A stretch of 64,000 nt of DNA from Mesostigma viride (lineage: Eukaryota > Streptophyta > Mesostigmatophyceae > Mesostigmatales > Mesostigmataceae). The notes beneath the pieces were generated by a model, which saw only the letters and a list, made by a program, of their open reading frames with translations, did no database searches and was not told where the DNA came from. The position numbers were made by a program, and so were the translations under genes. The stretch is taken from positions 98,501 to 162,500 of the forward strand of contig RPFO01000104.1 of assembly GCA_009746045.1 (NCBI GenBank), written 5' to 3'. Below, piece after piece: positions 6,290 to 44,343 of this stretch; position 1 is the stretch's first letter; each line of letters begins with the position of its first letter.

Positions 6290-6412
6290 ATGGACGTAAG
6301 GCACGCCGAAAAAGACGTATGGGATGCACTTGCTGGCTCCCTTGTGTCTTTACCTGCGGAAGGAGAGGACGTCATGTATTTTCCCCAAGGTCATTTGGAG
6401 CACATCGGAATG
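6290..6412 (+). CDS. ARF: ARF exon 1: start and PQGH motif
   Basis: Forty-one codons from [17 protein letters not shown] to GHLEHIGM, ending at a GTAAGA donor in phase 0. [12 protein letters not shown] and [11 protein letters not shown] match the first conserved ARF segment (family pattern LWhAcAGPLVslP and v.YFPQGH.Eq). An in-frame TGA at 6254-6256 makes ATG 6290 the first possible start unless an unseen upstream exon exists. The second Cys-containing part of the family motif (ACAG) is ALAG here. Confidence 0.8.

Positions 6413-44343: not shown

Follow-up and report, generated by a model that had tools for sequence, protein, structure and literature searches.

Genes that encode both a B3 and an Auxin_resp domain are described from streptophytes, charophytes included (PMC7226935), and an auxin response factor (ARF) is described as encoded in the Chara genome (PMC11982790). 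In the account given in PMC11685440, ARFs of the AB class are lacking in Charophyceae, and the ARF ancillary domain is homologous to the cryptic Tudor region of PHIP/BRWD proteins. The review PMC10690724 gives H136, G137, R181, Q183, P184 and R186 as the residues of AtARF1 that contact the major groove, and describes the major-groove residues as strongly conserved across the ARFs of the plant kingdom.

The locus presented here lies on the plus strand, at positions 6290-44343 of the window, which is the whole stretch of 64,000 nucleotides of Mesostigma viride DNA that was analysed. The reading that is favoured, by a little better than even chances, is that the region holds one gene for an ARF of ~4,430 residues, which would lack a PB1 domain, carry a long disordered effector tail and have a weak or altered recognition of the AuxRE. 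The exons of such a gene would be joined in a single transcript.

Exon chain of the DNA-binding region

Three-frame translations, tblastn with 64 ARF proteins, a micro-exon scan and a splice-site score were used to rebuild 13 exons and 12 introns, all on the plus strand. The ARF exons are collinear across 6.3-28.6 kb, and in-phase tail exons continue to ~36.2 kb. All 12 introns are of the GT-AG type with consistent phases, and the 1,803 codons translated up to position 36379 are free of stops. The total becomes 14 exons if the frame switch near 36 kb is counted as a junction. An earlier note on this DNA had claimed thirteen phase-consistent exons; the 13 exons with their 12 in-phase introns stand, but the last join, near 36 kb, does not share this consistency. 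Translation would start at the ATG at 6290, which follows an in-frame stop at 6254-6256 with no intervening ATG. The joined product, counted across the 36-kb switch, would have ~4,432 residues, with ~368 in the DNA-binding region and ~4,064 in the tail, close to the length near 4,450 residues that had been proposed.

Exon 1 (6290-6412) has the start codon and the N-terminal dimerisation region (WDALAG...), aligns to 71 ARFs and ends in phase 0 at the donor GTAAGA. Exon 2 (7869-7961), which was found by the micro-exon scan, has 31 codons that encode a beta-strand piece and also ends in phase 0, at the donor GTGAGT. When it is included, the spacing matches that of other ARFs, and it is probably the exon absent from the earlier thirteen, as far as that exon set can be deduced. 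Exon 3 (8663-8728), in phase 0 between the acceptor CTGCAG and the donor GTAAGT, is aligned to ARFs. The B3 domain begins in exon 4 (10331-10525), where the positions of H136 and G137 are altered and which is supported by tblastn collinearity, splice sites and alignment. It continues in exon 5 (23367-23469), which ends in phase 1 and has a glycine at the position of R181 (tblastn, splice sites and residue comparison), and in exon 6 (25893-25983), which ends in phase 2 (tblastn, splice sites and alignment). Exon 7 (26748-26915) has the end of B3 (GSLMVGVRR) and the dimerisation linker, and exon 8 (27765-27884) has the first half of the ancillary domain; both were placed by tblastn and splice sites.

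Intron 4, of 12.8 kb, contains an inverted repeat of 1,721 nt, whose arms (13504-15224 and 15872-17592) are 94% complementary and 647 nt apart; in the pre-mRNA they would fold into a long hairpin. Two dinucleotide arrays of GT and AC, at 22201-22285 in intron 4 and at 25456-25581 in intron 5, are complementary to each other.

ARF identity and residues of the B3 domain

A rough exon join of 274 residues, in which two exons were still missing, matches the Pfam models ARF_AD (E 1.6e-24) and B3 (E 4.8e-9), both above their cut-offs (86 bits against 27 and 36.5 bits against 30.1, respectively), and matches solved structures of ARF DNA-binding domains with E values from 3e-36 to 1.1e-31. The exons have thus passed the profile check for B3 and ARF_AD that was suggested earlier, and the identification as an ARF is upheld. 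A protein search in which ~295-938 residues were admissible gave 64 ARF homologues, and a search for proteins of ~922-2,933 residues, which longer ARFs with few shared words could escape, gave seven, all of 934-946 residues. Within this size range, the seven long-range matches agree with the contrast in size to known ARFs that had been drawn. Identity to the homologues is 24-38% across the aligned parts, with none above 38%. Those named by species are from land plants, and several of the 71 carry no species name; Chara, Nitella and other charophytes are not among the named rows. Pfam and the alignment place a B3 domain followed by Auxin_resp/ARF_AD within the dimerisation frame. Judged from its sequence, the gene is an ARF by descent and architecture, and its status as an AuxRE binder is a different matter.

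Positions were called conserved when one residue occurs in at least 90% of the sequences with letters there, among the 71 ARFs, which are of land-plant type. The locus keeps 19 of 21 conserved positions in the N-terminal dimerisation region, 2 of 3 in the post-B3 linker and 16 of 19 in the ancillary domain, but only 21 of 46 in B3 (35/40 for the N-terminal and ancillary regions together against 21/46, Fisher p 4.5e-5). The next-lowest ARF with a complete B3 keeps 40 of 46, and those with a partial B3 keep 5 of 10 (P0061), 20 of 27 (P0063) and 0 of 2 (P0064). The median identity to other ARFs is 0.35 in B3 and 0.39 and 0.38 in the flanks. Since identity in B3 is only slightly lower than in the flanks, the loss hits the positions that are normally most constrained and not the whole domain. 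The B3 that had been called unmistakable is one as regards the Pfam match, but not as regards its conserved positions, of which fewer than half are kept.

The positions of H136, G137, R181, Q183, P184 and R186, in the numbering of AtARF1, which was placed by motif with AtARF1 itself outside the alignment, are here Leu, a deletion, Gly, Ser, Thr and Arg, respectively. Only R186 is kept, and five of the six AuxRE-contact residues are changed. Among the other ARFs with letters at these positions, R181 and G137 (67 of 71 each) and P184 and R186 (65 of 71 each) are invariant, and H136 and Q183 vary. Because the ARFs compared are of land-plant type, some of the divergence may reflect lineage distance. 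The B3 domain is eroded at its DNA-contact residues, and the dimerisation and ancillary positions are mostly kept; an altered or lost recognition of the AuxRE is the likeliest reading of these changes.

Extent of the coding region

Exon 9 (28472-30085) has the second half of the ancillary domain, to ~28.62 kb, with ARF_AD matched at E 6.5e-16 in a single open frame, and passes in the same frame into a disordered tail rich in Gly, Ala and Pro. It ends in phase 2 at the donor CAG/GTGCGT, where the coding signal ends. An ARF of ordinary size, with exon 9 as the last exon, a TGA after 30410 and unrelated sequence downstream, would have 966 residues, which is normal for ARFs, and the frame is indeed open to 30410; this is very improbable, because the in-frame coding LOD per codon drops at the donor at 30086, from +0.27 on its 5' side to -0.18 on its 3' side. 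As the coding signal stops past 30085, exon 9 is taken to end at this donor and not at the TGA.

Four further tail exons follow. Exon 10 (30862-30964) passes from phase 2 to phase 0 and ends at the donor GAG/GTGAGT, with a coding LOD that is positive only in frame. Exon 11 (32378-32596) is Ala-rich and has a strong acceptor, placed 3' of a CCCTC polypyrimidine array, and a coding LOD in its support. The CCCTC-type array spans 0.7 kb (31678-32381) and ends at the polypyrimidine tract 5' of this exon. Exon 12 (33236-33915), which is acidic and GRG-rich and ends in phase 2, is supported by splice sites and coding LOD. Exon 13 (34546-36200, with an approximate end between 36.15 and 36.45 kb) is acidic and Gly-rich, lies in the frame f1 and has a strong phase-2 acceptor and a coding LOD. 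A last segment, exon 14 (36450-44343, with an approximate start), lies in the frame f0 and leads to the TGA at 44341-44343; it has a poly-Asn stretch from a CAA array and an LHLSL motif, and is supported by its open frame and by shuffles.

An open frame of 2,888 codons extends over 35677-44343. Its open run after the CAA array, of 2,183 codons, exceeds the runs of 300/300 second-order and 300/300 fourth-order Markov shuffles, with largest values of 1,001 and 1,153, respectively. In 28.3-36.8 kb, the longest run of 812 codons exceeds 300/300 second-order shuffles (largest 671), but the largest run of the fourth-order shuffles, 862, exceeds it. When a codon model is trained on exons 13-14, it gives positive in-frame values in the four exons of the DNA-binding region that were tested (1, 4, 7 and 8, out of eight), in three parts of exon 9 and in exons 10, 11 and 12. 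In all five flanks tested, which lie 3' of 30085, 30964 and 32596 and 5' of 33236 and 34546, it is negative or has no in-frame preference. Training on exon 9 by itself gives a model that finds the correct frame in all seven tail stretches. Codon statistics of this kind are blind to the difference between one gene and two neighbouring genes of one genome.

Exons 9 to 13 are linked by four junctions, and at each of them the highest-scoring donor listed has the phase of the highest-scoring acceptor listed, a result expected once in 81 cases with random phases. The best pairs in 60 random coding stretches give splice scores with a median of 8.0, a 90% value of 11.5 and a maximum of 14.9. The junction of exons 10-11 (18.7) exceeds this maximum, as does, by little, that of exons 12-13 (15.1), and those of exons 9-10 (9.3) and 11-12 (6.9) are within the range of chance. 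Six of the eight earlier junctions are also within that range (4.1-9.1), and most of them are backed by homology; the simple splice score, at chance for so many homology-backed junctions, is by itself weak evidence.

The junction of exons 12 and 13 also separates the single gene from two genes, in which the ARF would end at the stop at 33935-33937, with ~1,198 residues, and 34.5-44.3 kb would be a separate gene for a low-complexity protein, which could start, for example, at an ATG just inside exon 13. The open frame does reach this stop, an ATG is present near the start of exon 13, and relatives of the tail that would tie it to ARFs were not found among proteins of 1,588-5,054 residues. TGTAA occurs at 33968 and 34076, yet also 3' of the other two boundaries examined. 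The acceptor of exon 13, however, is among the strongest (11.9) and is in phase 2, the phase of the best donor of exon 12; the summed score of the junction exceeds the random maximum, and the coding signal is absent just 5' of 34546. Two genes, with a split at 33.9-34.5 kb, are considered unlikely.

Downstream of exon 13, the coding signal passes from f1 to f0 between ~36.15 and 36.45 kb (36150-36450), where no convincing frame-changing GT-AG or GC-AG pair was found, the best scoring 4.6 against the random median of 8.0. The assembly may have lost a base here, the frameshift may be real, or an unusual intron may be present, and the runs of 6, 6, 8 and 9 G within or just 5' of this interval make a missing base plausible. 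Without the frame change, f1 would stop at 37781-37783 and give ~2,270 residues. The frame may thus be truly broken at 36.2-36.45 kb, either with f1 read through the CAA array as poly-Thr to this stop or in a pseudogene allele. The lack of a convincing intron, the frame f1 open to 37783 and the eroded B3 are in line with such a break, which is nevertheless considered quite improbable: the codon signal is in f0 from 36.48 kb onward to 44.3 kb, the run of 2,183 codons that no shuffle reaches should decay if untranslated, the dimerisation and ancillary regions have kept most of their conserved positions (35 of 40), and the G runs offer a missing base as the cause. In the favoured single gene, the two frames would be joined across this interval.

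The next gene-like frame downstream of the ARF is on the opposite strand (47713-49506, minus), where 597 codons in one open frame encode a DnaJ (E 3.1e-15) and a Jiv90 (E 3e-22) domain. On the plus strand, a frame of 1,035 codons with an RVT_1 domain (50675-53782, E 3e-21) is probably a LINE-type element, and lies shortly 3' of a second, nearly pure CAA array of 353 bp (50005-50357), which is outside the ARF gene.

The tail, its possible action and related proteins

Of the 4,064 tail residues counted in the joined product, Gly and Ala account for 14% each, Pro for 11%, Ser for 9% and Asn for 7%; order-promoting residues make up 6-24% across six tail segments. The poly-Asn tract of the tail is encoded by the CAA array of 0.9 kb at 36852-37763; because a CAA array is also found outside the gene, growth of a microsatellite at the DNA level is a sufficient cause for the tract. 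The tail had been described as repeat-rich, which is right for its low complexity but not for clear duplications: among 15 pairs of tail segments, each compared with 60 local shuffles, only two slightly outscore every shuffle, namely exon 9 paired with exons 10-11, at 48 (best shuffle 41), and exon 12 paired with the last part of exon 14, at 97 (best shuffle 96). Among 7,972 candidates scored, of 1,588-5,054 residues, none is a relative of the C-terminal 559 residues at E <= 0.001. Pfam gives only a sub-threshold TFIIA match in the frame 35677-44340 (20.3 bits, cut-off 36.2), no match in the frames 34364-37780 and 33107-33934, and, in the join of exons 9-12, nothing beyond ARF_AD, BRWD_AD and a DUF3138 match ascribed to chance (E 3.7).

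Some short elements stand out from the disordered sequence. At 29970-30085, the end of exon 9 has a beta-beta-alpha pattern that is faintly AP2-like; as an AP2 candidate it was rejected, with no Pfam match at E <= 10, no sensible PDB match and a model whose pLDDT of 42 is too low to interpret. A short stretch at 43261-43410 is probably helical, with a pLDDT of 61 for the modelled piece 43213-43440, and no relative of it was found. The LHLSL motif at 41134-41148 is of the LxLxL, EAR-like type, of which two are found against 0.6 expected, and may be a chance occurrence. A site like that of miR160 gave no match with up to three mismatches allowed.

Many ARFs have a PB1 domain but some lack it, so that it is not strictly defining for them. 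An HMM of the ARF C-terminus, run on the six frames of the window, found nothing credible, its best matches (E 1.1 and 5.7) being on the minus strand; the same HMM matched 30 of 64 ARFs as a control, and a PB1 in tiny exons could escape it, as the frames scanned have at least 18 codons. No C-terminal PB1 is thus found here, and PB1 is also unlisted for a good part of the 71 homologues.

If the region is one gene, its product would dimerise through the conserved dimerisation region. With five of the six base-contacting residues of B3 changed, the AuxRE may be poorly recognised, another target may be recognised, or DNA may be reached through partners. Because PB1 is missing, the protein would escape the hold of Aux/IAA proteins and could act independently of auxin. 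The disordered tail may serve as an effector or a scaffold, perhaps a repressive one, and recruitment of TOPLESS through the single LHLSL motif is perhaps part of its action. A related and only tentative possibility is that AuxRE recognition and PB1 control have been given up altogether, and that the product is a scaffold of ~4,400 residues in which the dimerisation and ancillary (Tudor-like) fold would provide protein or chromatin contacts and the tail would be the working part; the beta-beta-alpha segment with which exon 9 ends might then even serve as a replacement module for DNA binding.

The class of this ARF was compared outside the tail. In a tree of the DNA-binding domain with 33 rows (this ARF and 32 of the 71 ARFs), its end branch has 3.3 changes per column, with no starred grouping. 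Diagnostic columns of the dimerisation and ancillary domains, outside B3, are C-like in seven cases, A/B-like in three and neither in nine. The post-B3 linker, of 36 residues, is A/B-like: 46 of 53 A/B-type ARFs have 35 residues there, and of the 11 class C-type rows nine have 49-70, one has 32 and one is unmeasured. The earlier note had taken the gene to bear on how ARFs looked before land plants; this is not sustained, given a tail with no detectable relative, the very long branch and the erosion of contact residues, which look derived rather than ancestral.

If transcripts join the tail to the ARF, the gene would be most unusual for this well-known family. As an intact-looking ARF that lacks most contact residues and PB1, and whose tail alone is several times as long as an ordinary ARF, it would indicate that ARF function is separable from recognition of the auxin element, and would offer a concrete gene for probing the roles of ARFs in algae without a canonical auxin pathway.

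Among the known systems, PHIP/BRWD proteins share the cryptic Tudor region: BRWD_AD is matched weakly by the ancillary domain (E 3.5e-5, under the cut-off of Pfam), in line with the homology described in PMC11685440. Unlike PHIP/BRWD, the locus has a B3 domain, scores 86 bits for ARF_AD against 23.9 for BRWD_AD, and has no WD40 or bromodomain listed in the frames scanned with Pfam. The ARFs of streptophyte algae (classes ABC, AB and C in PMC11685440 and CaARF in PMC6797205), beside which it is set by description, probably belong to the same broad group. With the land-plant ARFs of classes A, B and C, such as AtARF1, AtARF5 and MpARF2, it shares the order of dimerisation region, B3 and ancillary domain. 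It differs from them at the positions of H136, G137, R181, Q183 and P184, the first and fourth of which are variable there too, and in its tail, which would have ~4,060 residues against a few hundred in land-plant ARFs.
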